Program-made: the position numbers and the translations under genes | Shown: one piece after another, positions 2,822-33,446 of the stretch | Layout of the letters: every line of letters begins with the position of its first letter | How positions within the stretch are numbered: position 1 is the stretch's first letter | Origin: Streptomyces sp. YIM 130001 | GTDB taxonomy: Bacteria; Actinomycetota; Actinomycetes; Streptomycetales; Streptomycetaceae | NCBI RefSeq assembly: GCF_003574445.1 | Contig: NZ_KZ984555.1 | Location: 62,001-126,000, forward strand | Reading direction: 5' to 3' | DNA: 64,000 bases | The notes under the pieces: generated by a model | Seen by the model: the letters and a program-made list of their open reading frames with translations, nothing else | Told to the model about the DNA's origin: nothing | Databases searched by the model: none

Positions 2822-2905
2822 CCGAGCGGTGCCGTGCAGCGGGTACCGGGCCGGCGTGACGCAAAGACGTGGCCGCCGGCCGGGGGCAGCTGTTACGTTC
2901 GAGCC

Positions 2906-2959
2906 ATGAAGCGCGCTGTGTCGATCACGACGACGCCGGACACTGTCCCGGCGCGCTGA
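2906..2959 (+). CDS. Threonine-rich leader peptide (17 aa) of the short ThrRS gene
   Basis: A 17-codon reading frame, MKRAVSITTTPDTVPAR, precedes the ThrRS gene. It has three consecutive Thr codons (ACG ACG ACG) and a fourth soon after, as expected for a leader that senses charged tRNA-Thr. A 6-bp stem (2934-2939 with 2948-2953) forms over its last codons, and a perfect 14-bp hairpin follows 14 bases after the stop. The layout matches classical transcription attenuation of amino-acid genes. A recognisable ribosome site is weak (GTTCGAGCC), so translation of the peptide is inferred. Confidence 0.65.
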   Translation: MKRAVSITTTPDTVPAR

Positions 2960-2973
2960 GAGTTTTCTTGGTT

Positions 2974-3005
2974 CGAAGCCCCGGGGCGAGTGCCCCGGGG
3001 CTTCG
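2974..3005 (+). terminator. Perfect 14-bp attenuator/terminator hairpin before the short ThrRS gene
   Basis: Bases 2974-2987 pair fully with 2992-3005 around a 4-base loop (GAGT). It lies between the Thr leader peptide and the ThrRS start at 3045. No U-tract follows, which is common for Streptomyces terminators. Confidence 0.7.
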
Positions 3006-3044
3006 CCGTGCGGTCACTCGCTCCCTTCCGCGAGGAGACCCCGC

Positions 3045-4403
3045 ATGAACGAGCACCCCGCCCTGAACGACGAGCACGTCGCGCACGACGCCCGGCACGA
3101 CGGTCCCGTGGCGGACCAGCCCCCTGCCGCCGTCGACAACCCCCACGACCACCGCAGACTGGGACGCGAACTCGAGCTGTTCGGCACCGACCCCCTGATG
3201 GGCGCCGGACTGCCGTACTGGCTGCCCGACGGAGCGACTGTCCGGCACAGCCTGGAGGAGTACATCCGGTCGGCCGAGCGGCGGGCCGGCTACCGGCATG
3301 TGTACTCACCCGTCCTCGGCAAGCGCGAGCTGTACGAGATCTCCGGGCACTGGTCCCACTACCGGGACGACATGTTCCCGCCGATGGCCCTCAAAAGCGC
3401 CGAGGGAGGCATGGGCGACGAGGTCGTGCTGCGGCCGAGCCTGTGTCCGCACCATGCCCTGATCTACCGTTCACGCTCCCGTAGCTACCGCGAACTCCCC
3501 TTGCGCATGGCCGAGTTGGGCGGCATGTACCGTTCCGAGCCATCCGGGGTGCTCGGCGGGCTCACCCGCGTACGGTCGATCCAGCTGAACGACGCACACA
3601 TCTTCTGCACCCTGGAACAGGCCGCCGACGAGGCGGCGTCCGCGCTCGCCCTGATCAGGCAGGCGTACCGCGACCTCGGCATCGAAGCGGCCCGCTTCCG
3701 CCTCTCGCTGCCCGACGACGGCGCGAGCGGCGACGGCAAGTACGTGTCCGCGCCCGGCATGTGGGAGCGGGCCGCGGCCCTGCTCACCGAGGTGCTCGAG
3801 CGCTCAGGGGTCGCCTACGAGGCGGCGCCGGGCGAGGCCGCGTTCTACGGCCCGAAGATCGACGTGCAGATCGCCGACGCGGCGGGCCGCGAGTCCACCC
3901 TGTCGACCGTGCAGATCGACTTCCACCAGCCCGAACGCTTCGGCCTGCACTACATCGGCGCGGACGGCGCCAAGCACCGGCCGGTGATGGTCCATCGCAG
4001 CATCATCGGCAGTGTGGAGCGGGCCGTGGCCCACCTCATCGAGGTGCACGGCGGCGCGTTCCCGGCATGGCTGGCACCCGCCCAGGTCGCCGTACTCCCG
4101 GTCTCCGAGGGCGAGCCGGAGGAGCGGGCCGCCCGCGAGCTCCTGGCCCGCTGCGAGGAGCGCGAGCTGCGCGCCGAACTCGCTCCGGCCGGACAGGGCA
4201 GCCTGGGCGCCCGGATCCGCGACGCCCGACTCGTGCCGTACCAGGCGGTGATCGGCGGCCGGGAGGCGGCGGCCGGCCAGGTCTCCGTACGCCTGCGGGA
4301 CGGACGCCGCCTCCCGCCGCTGCCAGTAGCGGAGTTCGTCGCCGAAGTGGACGCCCTGGTACGCGCCCACGAGACCCGGCTGTGGGGCGACGCGGTGGCA
4401 TGA
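3045..4403 (+). CDS. thrS: Threonyl-tRNA synthetase, short form lacking TGS and editing domains
   Basis: Charges tRNA-Thr. The 452 residues hold only the class II catalytic core and anticodon-binding domain; normal bacterial ThrRS is about 640-660 residues with N-terminal TGS and Ser-editing domains. Visible are LRPSLCPHH (zinc Cys region), motif 2 around RSEPSGVLGGLTRVR and NDAHIFC, and motif 3 PVMVHRSIIGSVERAVAHLI followed by the FPAWLAPAQVAVLPV linker into the anticodon domain. ATG 3045 follows a GAGGAGA ribosome site. Second, short ThrRS genes occur in Streptomyces as stress or antibiotic-tolerant paralogues; the Thr leader and hairpin upstream suggest induction when charged tRNA-Thr falls. 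Without an editing domain it may rely on the housekeeping enzyme to clear Ser-tRNA-Thr. Confidence 0.88.
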   Translation: MNEHPALNDEHVAHDARHDGPVADQPPAAVDNPHDHRRLGRELELFGTDPLMGAGLPYWLPDGATVRHSLEEYIRSAERRAGYRHVYSPVLGKRELYEISGHWSHYRDDMFPPMALKSAEGGMGDEVVLRPSLCPHHALIYRSRSRSYRELPLRMAELGGMYRSEPSGVLGGLTRVRSIQLNDAHIFCTLEQAADEAASALALIRQAYRDLGIEAARFRLSLPDDGASGDGKYVSAPGMWERAAALLTEVLERSGVAYEAAPGEAAFYGPKIDVQIADAAGRESTLSTVQIDFHQPERFGLHYIGADGAKHRPVMVHRSIIGSVERAVAHLIEVHGGAFPAWLAPAQVAVLPVSEGEPEERAARELLARCEERELRAELAPAGQGSLGARIRDARLVPYQAVIGGREAAAGQVSVRLRDGRRLPPLPVAEFVAEVDALVRAHETRLWGDAVA

Positions 4404-4424: not shown

Positions 4425-4650
4425 TCAGTGGTCGCGGCGGTGCGGCACCTCGACGGTGACCACCGCCGCGGCGACGGCCCAGACCGCGTACACGCACCAC
4501 GCGCCCGCGGCGGACCACGGCAGGGCGGCGGCCTCGTAGGGGATGTCGGTCAGGCGGTTCCACGCCATGAACGGCTGGGCGTGGTTGACCAGGGCCGACC
4601 AGCGCCGCTCGTCGCTGAACACCGGCGGCAGCACGACCAGGATCCCGCAG
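4425..4650 (-). pseudogene. 3' remnant of an ABC-2 type transporter permease
   Basis: On the minus strand about 74 residues ending ...TVEVPHRRDH read as the C-terminal end of a membrane permease: GILVVLPPVF, then NHAQPFMAWNRLTDIPY, then a hydrophobic helix (AWCVYAVWAVAAAVV). This is typical of the last segments of ABC-2 permeases found next to two-component systems in Streptomyces. Similarity stops at about 4650, exactly where the plus-strand response-regulator fragment begins. The 5' part of the gene is gone. Confidence 0.65.
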
Positions 4651-5091
4651 GTGATCGTCCTGACCACGTTCGACGACGACGCGTACGTGTACGGGGCGTT
4701 GCGCGTGGGCGCCGCCGGATTCCTGGTCAAGGACATGGCGTTGGACGACATCCTCGCGGCGGTCCGGGTGGTCGCCGGCGGGGACGGACTGCTCGCGCCC
4801 GGTGTGACCCGCCGGCTGATCCGCGAGTTCGCACGCCGGCCGGTGGGCGGCGGGACCGGCCGTGGCGGCGTCGCCGCCCGTACGCTCGACGCGATCACCG
4901 TCCGGGAGCGTGAGGTCCTCACCCTGGTCGGCAGCGGCCTGTCGAACACCGAGATCGCGGACCGTCTGCACCTCAGCGTCGCCACCGCCAAGACGTACCT
5001 GACCCGGCTGCTCGCCAAGCTCGACGCGCGCGACCGGGTCCAGCTGGTGATCATCGCGTACGAGGCGGGTCTCGTCTCGCCCACCCGGTGA
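4651..5091 (+). pseudogene. 3' remnant of a NarL/LuxR-family response regulator
   Basis: The readable part starts at VIVLTTFDDDAYVYGAL, the fourth strand/helix region of a receiver domain, continues through the conserved Lys (FLVKDM) and ends with a complete LuxR helix-turn-helix (ITVREREVLTLVGSGLSNTEIA). The first half of the receiver, with the phosphoacceptor Asp, is missing. The frame stays open leftwards to 4543 but that stretch is antisense to the permease remnant and is not homologous. A single deletion removing the 5' ends of two divergent genes explains both fragments. A shortened DNA-binding protein could still be made. Confidence 0.75.
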
Positions 5092-10388: not shown

Positions 10389-11785
10389 CGGCCGATCTCG
10401 ACGTTCTCCAGGACGCCCAGGGCGTCGGGGACGAGGACGGCGGCCGAGTAGTAGGCGGTGACCAGATAGGACATGATCGCCTGCTCGCTGATGCCCATGA
10501 AGCGGACGGACAGGCTCGGTTCGATCTCGTCGGGGATGCCGGCCTGCTGGAGGCCGACCACGCCCGCGTCCTCCTCGCCGGTGCGCATGCACAGGATCGA
10601 GGTGGTCCTGGCGTCACTGATCGGGATCTTGTTGCACGGGAAGATCGGCACGCCGCGCCAGGCCGGGACGTGGTGGCCGTTCACCTCGACCGTGTCCGGG
10701 TAGATGCCGCGCTTGGTGCACTCGCGGCCGAAGGCGGAGATCGCCCGCGGGTGGGCGAGGAACATCTTGGATCCGCGCCTGCGGCTGAGCAGTTCGTCCA
10801 TGTCGTCCGGGCTCGGCGCTCCGGCGTGCGGCTGCAGGCGCTGGTCGTACTCGCAGTTGCTGAGCAGGCCGAACTCGCGGTTGTTGACCAGTTCGTGCTC
10901 CTGGCGTTCCTTGAGCGCCTCGACGGTGAGCCGGAGCTGCTGCTCCGTCTGGTTCATGGGCTGGTTGTAGAGGTCGGCGACCCGGGTGTGGATGCGCAAC
11001 ACGGTCTGGGCGACGCTCAGTTCGTACTCGCGGGGGGCGGCGTCGTAGTCGACGTACGTGCCCGGGATCTCGGCCTCGCCCACATGTCCTGCGGAGAGGT
11101 CGATCTCCTTCTCGCCGTGCTTGTTGGTGCGCTGGCTGGGGACGGACCGGAGCCTGGCGAGGTGGCCGCGCAGGGTTTCCGCGCGCTCGGCGAGCTGCGC
11201 GACGTCCTGCCGGGACAGGGTGAGGACGGTGCAGGCGGTGACGGCCCGCGCGGTGTACTCCCAGATGGCGTCCGGGTCGAGGAGGCACTGGTCGCCGAAG
11301 TAGGCGCCGTCGGCCAGGACTCCCAGCACCGCGTCGTCGCCGTACGGGCCGGTGCCGAGCTTCTCCACACGGCCGCGGGCGAGCAGATACACCTCCTCCA
11401 CGGAGCTGCCGAAGGACGTGATGGTCTCGCCGGGCCCGAACTCCCGCTGCCGGCACCGCTGCGCGAGCTCGTCGAGGGCCGCGGTGTCCTCGAAGCCGCG
11501 CAGCGCCGGGAGTTCACCGAGCTCGGCGGGGATGACCCGGACCTGGTCGCCGGTCTTCACGAAGGTGAGGCGCCCGTCACCCACCGAGTAACTGAGCCTG
11601 CGGTTCACCCGGTAGGTGCCGCCCTGCACCTGTACCCAGGGCAGCATGCGCAGCAGCCAGCGGGAGCTGATCTCCTGCATCTGCGGCGTGGACTTGGTCG
11701 TGGTGGCCAGGTTCCGCGCGGCCCCGGTGGCCAGGCTCTGCTGCGGCCTGCCCTGCTCCGTGCGGATCTCTTCGCCTACCGACAT
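10379..11785 (-). CDS. Family 2B encapsulin shell protein with cyclic-nucleotide-binding domain
   Basis: 468 residues. The N-arm ([19 protein letters not shown]) and C-terminal HK97-type body ([41 protein letters not shown] in pieces, [16 protein letters not shown]) match family 2 encapsulins, including EshA of S. griseus. A Crp-type cyclic-nucleotide-binding domain (about residues 85-205: [35 protein letters not shown]) marks subfamily 2B. ATG 11785 has GGAGGG upstream. It should assemble a protein shell around the downstream polyprenyl synthase; a nucleotide ligand may control assembly or pore state. First gene of a two-gene operon. Confidence 0.93.
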
Positions 11786-21424: not shown

Positions 21425-21825
21425 GGAGGGCACGGGCTGAGAGTACCTGGCCGCCACTCGTACCTGGTCACGGCCGGTGCGTGGTCCCTGGAACACCCGC
21501 GGGCCGCGGCGCCTGGGAGGGACCCTCAGCCCTCCCGGCACCGCAGCCCGGGTTGCATCGGCCGGCGGGTGTGCGGTCCCAGCGGCCGAGTGGAGGCTCC
21601 GGTGCAGTCAGGGCAGAGAGCGCCGGTGCCTCACTCCGCCCTCCTGTGCGGGGAGAGCGGGAGCCTGTCCTCTGCATTGTGGACTAGACCATTCTCCGGT
21701 GTCCATGCGTGCGGAGGTGTGAGTTTTCGTCGGTTTCTCCAACAGGTACCGGTGTCACCTGCACCGACCGTGGCACGTACCCGAGGGCACGGCTGAAACG
21801 GAGTGGCGGTTCACCGGTCGCACGG
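21425..21825. other. Intergenic region between kinase and SIS-isomerase genes
   Basis: 401 bases without a supportable gene. The only recognised element is a dre-like sequence at 21678-21693. GGAGGGACCCTCAGCCCTCC near 21517 can form a small hairpin. Confidence 0.5.
21678..21693. promoter_or_regulatory. Degenerate dre (DasR operator-like) site
   Basis: TGTGGACTAGACCATT matches 12 of 16 positions of the consensus ACTGGTCTAGACCACT; the 12-base core has one mismatch. It is about 255 bases upstream of the histidine kinase start and 130 bases past the SIS-isomerase stop, so its target is unclear. Confidence 0.4.
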
Positions 21826-33239: not shown

Positions 33240-33299
33240 GTCCGGTCCGCGTGAACGCCACGTGACACAAGATGTGGGGCCTCCTTCGTCCAACCGACC

Positions 33300-33446
33300 C
33301 AACATGTATGCTCGTGCTCGCTGTCACGCCAGGGGAATCCGGTGCGAATCCGGAACTGTCCCGCAACGGTGTATGTGTGCGCATTCCGCGTGCCCATGAG
33401 TCCGAAGACCTGCCGACAGCGCACCCGGTCCGTCCGGTCCGGGTGC
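33300..33446 (+). promoter_or_regulatory. Cobalamin (B12) riboswitch with expression-platform hairpin, upstream of nrdA
   Basis: GCCAGGGGAATCCGGTGCGA and the B12 box AGTCCGAAGACCTGCC (about 33398-33413) are diagnostic of the cobalamin aptamer. A hairpin pairing 33421-33428 with 33439-33446 follows and probably stops transcription or hides the start region. B12 should turn the class Ia reductase off when the B12-dependent class II enzyme can work, as shown for S. coelicolor nrdABS. Confidence 0.95.

Follow-up and report, generated by a model that had tools for sequence, protein, structure and literature searches.

A gene for a short threonyl-tRNA synthetase (ThrRS) of the thrS2 type (positions 3045 to 4403, forward strand, 452 amino acids) is preceded on the same strand in Streptomyces sp. 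YIM 130001 by a small open reading frame (2906 to 2959); positions are those of the window, the whole 64,000-nucleotide stretch of DNA that was analyzed. The frame encodes the 17 residues MKRAVSITTTPDTVPAR followed by a TGA stop, and it carries the putative sensor codons ACG ACG ACG at 2927 to 2935 as well as a fourth Thr codon, ACT, at 2942 to 2944. A 14-bp hairpin (P3, arms 3 and 4; CGAAGCCCCGGGGC-GAGT-GCCCCGGGGCTTCG, with the loop GAGT at 2988 to 2991) occupies 2974 to 3005 of the forward strand, and the RNA from 2880 to 3080 folded more stably than every one of 200 dinucleotide shuffles (z = −4.0). The triple-ACG frame, a perfect hairpin and a ThrRS lacking the TGS and editing domains had been named in an original prediction, and each was found: the product of the gene, which has eight Thr codons and no ACG, matches the NCBIfam threonine--tRNA ligase model, and Pfam models matched only the class II core and the anticodon-binding domain, with no match to a TGS or editing domain. 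Its zinc-ligand motifs are kept. Elsewhere in the window, the frame at 1283 to 2821 matches PEP mutase (PF13714) in its C-terminal half and is unmatched over its N-terminal 260 residues; the frame at 4543 to 5091, 140 nt after the ThrRS gene, encodes a partial response-regulator domain, whose receiver half looks incomplete, and a LuxR-type helix-turn-helix. Rfam matches in the window comprised Sernc350 (11247 to 11751), scr5239 (21509 to 21663) and a cobalamin riboswitch (33298 to 33431).

Occurrence of the leader was surveyed at 80 loci, the best matches listed for the closest short ThrRS genes, which span Streptomyces, Kitasatospora, Streptosporangium, Saccharopolyspora, Nocardia and others. 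An upstream short frame with three consecutive Thr codons was present at 79 of them; the exception, L072, has merely 63 nt of upstream sequence, so that the leader was found at 79 of 79 testable loci, and a chance frame can be discounted on this ground. Conservation of the Thr codons, which the original prediction had expected, thus held for the run, which was also kept in 8 of 8 distant leaders, while the fourth codon it had counted is present in the window and is not conserved. No Thr-run frame was found in the 400 nt upstream of the housekeeping thrS in the window's own genome.

A covariance model built on the leader detected 58 strong matches (E below 1e-12) among 394 genomes from the class to which the window belongs. 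Of these, 57 lie directly upstream of a short ThrRS gene, as judged by comparing places by eye, and the remaining one (G035) stops at a contig end. Setting the threshold for presence of the gene at E up to 1e-110 yielded 62 gene-bearing genomes in this sample, 60 of which have the leader: 57 by a strong match, G327 and G338 by a weak match together with reading of the sequence, and G330 by reading. In the other two (G288 and G412) the gene sits at a contig end. Six weak model matches (L130 to L135) were left out, as the filter yielded no leader there, although that filter also missed true leaders. Within the window's order, 58 of 147 genomes carry the short gene (E below 1e-150, counted by eye); it is accessory in this order. 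A search of 396 genomes of the phylum added Thr-run leaders, identified by reading, in G781, G649, G850, G726 and G836 and the ordinary form in G539; no leader was found on reading upstream of the full-length ThrRS gene of G635, and the match in G688 (L199) contains a stop. After removal of identical copies, and with L055 (missed by the search pattern) and L072 (no upstream sequence) left out, 138 distinct leaders were counted; a search with the 3′ motif of the leader at three mismatches was too loose for copy counts. L169 (G058:C23, at about 749 in the locus) is a decayed second leader copy with a stop in the Thr-Pro region, apparently followed by a remnant of a ThrRS C terminus, in a genome that has a short ThrRS gene with leader elsewhere; in G076, a 79% identical match covers only residues 33 to 244 of the short enzyme and is perhaps a broken copy.

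The Thr codons of leader and gene are sharply partitioned. In a set of 79 leaders selected purely by peptide pattern, ACG accounts for 233 of the 237 codons in the run (75, 79 and 79 at the three positions, with ACT in four first places). In the 138 leaders a count of 413 ACG in 441 is partly due to selection, as the search pattern called for ACG in second place; codons for Thr beyond the run comprise 20 ACC, 4 ACG and 3 ACT in these leaders. The short genes themselves nearly lack this codon: in the 80 best matches listed, 893 Thr codons comprise 851 ACC, 37 ACT, 4 ACG and 1 ACA. When the homologous domain was compared in 20 genomes that have both paralogs, ACG made up 95 of 337 Thr codons in the housekeeping gene versus 0 of 170 in the short gene (Fisher's test, 1.2e-19), and Thr content was 4.3% versus 2.1%. 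The 41 loci of the class sample, partly from the same genomes, gave 1 ACG in 360 for the short gene. Farther away, the run is mostly ACG too, and the short genes of G327, G338, G330, G781 and G649 contain no ACG, those of G726 and G836 one each (1 of 15 and 1 of 12); left out of these counts were L205 (G850), with a broken frame and 5 of 14, and L206 (G635), a full-length ThrRS gene for which no leader was found, with 3 of 16.

Codon bias driven by expression was considered as a cause of ACG avoidance and set aside. Other codons of the same ending, TCG (74 of 259), CCG (290 of 498) and GCG (359 of 1,055), are somewhat less used by the short gene than by its housekeeping paralog and are still common, and eight EF-Tu-family genes of the same genome use ACG for 19 to 43% of Thr (18 to 43% with the housekeeping thrS included); for both reasons such a bias is an unlikely cause. 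tRNA-Thr genes with the anticodons CGU, UGU and, twice, GGU were found among the 54 of 65 tRNA matches scanned. According to the theory of selective charging, leaders use those synonymous codons that are most sensitive to starvation (PMC1183508). An ACG run ahead of a nearly ACG-free gene is independent evidence for a candidate attenuator.

Several pairings, all on the forward strand, would compete within this RNA. At their center is region 2 (GTCCCGGCGCGC, 2945 to 2956), whose possible partners are the Thr and Pro codons (P1), region 1 and arm 3 (P2). In P1, CGCCGG of the last Thr and the Pro codons (2934 to 2939) pairs with CCGGCG (2948 to 2953); in P2, 2945 to 2951 pairs with 2981 to 2987. 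The stem 1:2 joins GCGCGC at 2911 to 2916 (region 1, codons 2 to 4) to 2951 to 2956. This 6-bp stem was part of the original prediction and stood in the close relatives, where 99.6% of its positions are paired in 80 aligned leaders; it was not seen in the distant leaders, where the P1 hairpin takes its place. Downstream, the apex of arm 3 with the loop (3b, GGGGCGAGTG, 2983 to 2992) can pair with region 5 (CACTCGCTCC, 3015 to 3024) to form P4, a pairing that the original prediction had missed. Region 5 is also a potential partner of the Shine-Dalgarno (SD) region 6 (GCGAGGAG, 3030 to 3037), in which GCGAG can pair with CTCGC at 3017 to 3021 (P5).

Support for these helices differs in degree. 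P3 is paired in 98.9% of cells across the 80 leaders, with six compensatory co-changes and 18 double-change cells versus 6.0 expected (p = 0.032); the share of its variant cells that are paired was not above the null (p = 0.77). The core of P4 (2986 to 2992 with 3015 to 3021) is 94.8% paired; the tree shows nine compensatory co-changes for it, versus none for any of six slid registers. Covariation thus supports this candidate pairing, through the one helix-level measure that was significant (44 double-change cells versus 12.0 expected, p = 0.0035); the proportion of its variant cells that are paired gave p = 0.16. No single pair was significant under the tree null, the best being 2988:3019 (E about 1.2), and P5 taken alone did not covary significantly (p = 0.23). 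On 1:2 and 2:3 covariation is silent, because both hardly vary among close relatives.

Against dinucleotide shuffles, combined Fisher values, which treat related sequences as independent, were 5.6e-11 for P1, 1.4e-11 for P2, 7.3e-5 for P4 and 1.1e-7 for P5 in 29 representatives and 8.6e-4, 0.014, 7.8e-4 and 5.9e-5, respectively, in 8 distant leaders, whose arms were set by eye. Singly, p was below 0.05 in 2 of 8 distant leaders for P1 and likewise for P2, in 3 of 29 representatives and 4 of 8 distant leaders for P4, and in 7 of 29 and 3 of 8 for P5. The same topology can be read by eye in the distant leaders with other letters, for example as CGACGGGT:ACCCGTCG for P1. Two marks of an attenuator are accordingly present, a run of Thr codons before a gene for the same amino acid and mutually exclusive pairings among regions 1, 2, 3 and 4, of which P1 and P2 are indicated by their strength against shuffles and by folds rather than by covariation.

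Folds were computed under different ribosome settings. With a ribosome masking the Thr codons of an RNA that does not yet extend to arm 4, P2 formed in the window leader (−22.6 kcal/mol) and in seven others (−15.3 to −21.4 kcal/mol). Masking arm 4 gave at least eight pairs between region 2 or the spacer and arm 3 in 27 of the 29 representatives and in 7 of the 8 distant leaders. A ribosome at the stop codon covers region 2 and gave a different fold. In the full-length window RNA, P3 formed in all four ribosome settings.

The DNA itself shows the leader, the position of its putative promoter (below), the division of ACG between leader and gene, and helices that would exclude one another at region 2 and arm 3. 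Together they suggest, on comparative evidence throughout, that the original prediction was right in kind, and we conclude that this is probably a ribosome-mediated attenuator. It would respond to how far the ACG-reading tRNA-Thr is charged and switch on a backup ThrRS reduced to the catalytic core. When that tRNA is uncharged, a ribosome would stall on the ACG run and melt P1; region 2 would then be free to pair with arm 3 (P2), P3 would be blocked and the gene would be expressed. When Thr-tRNA is plentiful, the ribosome would advance to the stop codon, at which region 2 ends; P3 would then form and expression would be turned off.

As to output, we lean toward transcription read-through, with masking of the SD as an alternative or a second layer. 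The hairpin is real; as a terminator it is putative. The third mark of an attenuator, a GC-rich hairpin followed by a U-tract, was not seen: TTTT occurs within 15 nt after P3 in 0 of 138 leaders, and a terminator scan of this stretch of the window found none. Streptomyces has structured 3′ ends without U residues, which have been related to I-shaped terminators or Rho-dependent ends (PMC8269248), and the missing U-tract therefore weakens a transcriptional attenuator and does not exclude it.

Control at the level of translation is a tentative alternative, which we consider rather doubtful. Here the hairpin would be no terminator; P5 would mask the SD for as long as 3:4 stands, and once the stalled ribosome frees arm 3, 3b would take region 5 (P4) and open the SD. 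The missing U-tract, the covariation of P4 and the excess of both P4 and P5 over shuffles would fit this scheme, as would the distant leaders of G330 and G338, in which the SD can be held by GGGCTCC:GGAGCCC (P5, by eye), and that of G781, whose P4 is a 10-bp helix of different letters. When region 2, arm 4 and the SD were all made unavailable, each of the 26 leaders folded gave P4. However, mean SD accessibility across the 29 representatives was 0.28 both with and without arm 4, and removal of arm 4 raised it in only 2 of 29 representatives and 1 of 8 distant leaders. With a 30S subunit holding the SD, P2 still beat P4 in most leaders folded. Accessibility was only slightly below that of mononucleotide shuffles (0.330 versus 0.365; lower in 83 of 132), and the covariation of P5 was, as noted, not significant. 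The flat accessibility and the dominance of P2 over P4 argue against a simple SD switch at equilibrium, in folds that include neither pseudoknots nor kinetics.

A promoter can be proposed upstream. A −10-like hexamer, TACGTT, lies at 2894 to 2899 (forward strand), 6 nt before the start of the leader, which would make the leader frame leaderless. TANNNT precedes the start by 6 to 7 nt in all 138 leaders, where the choice of start partly favored the hexamer, and in 8 of 8 distant leaders; transcription should therefore begin upstream of the hairpin, and a start downstream of it, which would contradict the original prediction, is not indicated. An imperfect match to a WblC/WhiB7-type box (GCAAAGACG, 2861 to 2869, forward strand) stands in position relative to the −10. 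In 43 of the 138, a GAAAWY box starts 32 to 34 nt ahead of the −10, versus a mean of 0.245 and a maximum of 3 in mononucleotide shuffles, and AAA or GAAW at the box offset in 106 of 138, versus 0 to 4 at four other offsets. A table of WblC-activated genes includes thrS2 (PMC7157823), and SCO3778 has been named a threonyl-tRNA synthetase (PMC10771440); we infer that both refer to the short gene. Control by WblC alone, with leader and hairpin as a passive 5′ region, would account for the positioned box and for the listing of thrS2 among the activated genes. It leaves the ACG run, the near absence of ACG from the gene and the compensated helices unexplained, and we regard it as very improbable. 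In S. lividans, leader peptides are listed before alaS, trpS and thrS (PMC8079986, Table 4), and the WblC-activated genes listed for S. coelicolor include alaS2, trpS and thrS2 (PMC7157823, Table 1). If the former genes are the counterparts of the latter paralogs, there would be a class of doubly controlled backup synthetases.

The leader is constrained as RNA. Of 138 distinct leaders, 131 share exactly the same last 15 nt (GTCCCGGCGCGCTGA). The peptide ends in VPAR in most of them, as would be expected of an arrest peptide, in which the nascent chain TTTPESVPAR would itself respond to a drug or metabolite by stalling the ribosome. However, the reading frame is shifted at the end of the leader in L002 and L110, which keep all 15 nt, and in L141, which keeps the last 12; these leaders lose the peptide end and retain all or most of the RNA, so that conservation is of the RNA rather than of the peptide. 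The distant leaders have little in common beyond the Thr run. A function of the peptide was therefore set aside, and we give an arrest peptide very little credence. A T-box or another known RNA family deserves practically none, as Rfam gave no T-box match at the leader and no match over it at gathering score, with four weak sub-threshold matches only.

The short enzyme may also differ from its housekeeping paralog in sensitivity to inhibitors. At the site of Leu489 of E. coli ThrRS, Gln is found in the window enzyme and at 80 of 80 best-matching loci, and G463 (E. coli numbering) is kept in 81 of 81 including the window; of 43 motif finds in further loci, 42 have Gln at the 489 site and 1 has Lys. 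Leu stands there in the distant enzymes of G649 and G850 and, as usual, in the housekeeping ThrRS of the window's genome. Mutations at L489 or H309 of the E. coli enzyme are reported to raise the borrelidin Ki 300- to 1,000-fold, and the self-resistant ThrRS of S. parvulus is described as different at the L489 site (PMC4389257). From the residue at this resistance site, the short ThrRS is predicted to be possibly inhibitor tolerant. The same residue is what would point to induction by borrelidin, as put forward in the original prediction.

The trpRS1 attenuator of S. coelicolor, reportedly described by Vecchione and Sello in 2010, governs an auxiliary, drug-tolerant synthetase through a leader. 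The thrS2 leader resembles it in controlling, as proposed here, an auxiliary synthetase; Trp, however, has a single codon, whereas the thrS2 leader picks the one synonym that its gene avoids. With attenuators of the trp, leu and his type it shares a run of cognate codons, alternative hairpins and a codon choice tied to the charging of isoacceptors, in keeping with the theory cited above (PMC1183508), and it differs from them in lacking a U-tract. ACC is the codon of the E. coli thr leader, in contrast to ACG here. The LEU element of actinobacterial leuA is alike in its alternative structures, involvement of the SD and lack of a clear terminator, as described in a 2005 survey, and unlike in its pairing scheme and gene; that survey, in the portion available to us, gives no conserved structure for threonine genes of actinobacteria (PMC1262725).

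The closest precedent is thrL of S. lividans TK24, reported as an attenuator candidate with a leaderless start, whose termination its authors call unclear (PMC8079986). It resembles the present leader in placing MKRVRPFLETTPGFVPAR before a thrS, in its leaderless start and in having one hairpin and no U-rich stretch, and 13 of its 18 residues, compared by eye, equal those of leader L155 (MKRAQPFLTTTPDSVPAR) found here. It differs in being one candidate with two Thr codons, which that report, in the portion available to us, treats without comparative, structural or codon analysis (PMC8079986). From locus numbering and the company this leader keeps in our set, we infer that thrL precedes the short ThrRS paralog. 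A literature search found no account of the leader family, of P1, P4 or P5, or of the ACG partition; a review by Lopatovskaya et al. (2010) may list thrS leaders. Overall, the Thr(ACG)-codon leader before this backup ThrRS gene is real and is conserved widely. Attenuators of this kind are known, and the family and its ACG partition appear to be new.

A broader reading, to which we give even chances, is that of a codon-partitioned rescue circuit. ACG would serve as the alarm codon, and ACG together with about half of all Thr would have been purged from the rescue enzyme, so that the tRNA-Thr isoacceptors used for the alarm would differ from those used for the response. This RNA may affect termination as well as SD access, and the promoter may in addition respond to WblC. 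With few Thr codons and hardly any ACG, thrS2 could be translated even in the very starvation that would induce it. If this is true, thrS2 would be a two-key backup against failure of Thr-tRNA and against inhibitors of the ribosome or the synthetase. The alarm codon stands beside a gene that avoids it, with near-total separation in close relatives and the housekeeping paralog as a built-in control, and the idea of selective charging is therefore directly testable in this system. The leader model can be used to find other such backup synthetases, and the reading proposed here tells under which conditions the cell would turn to a spare synthetase that is possibly inhibitor tolerant.
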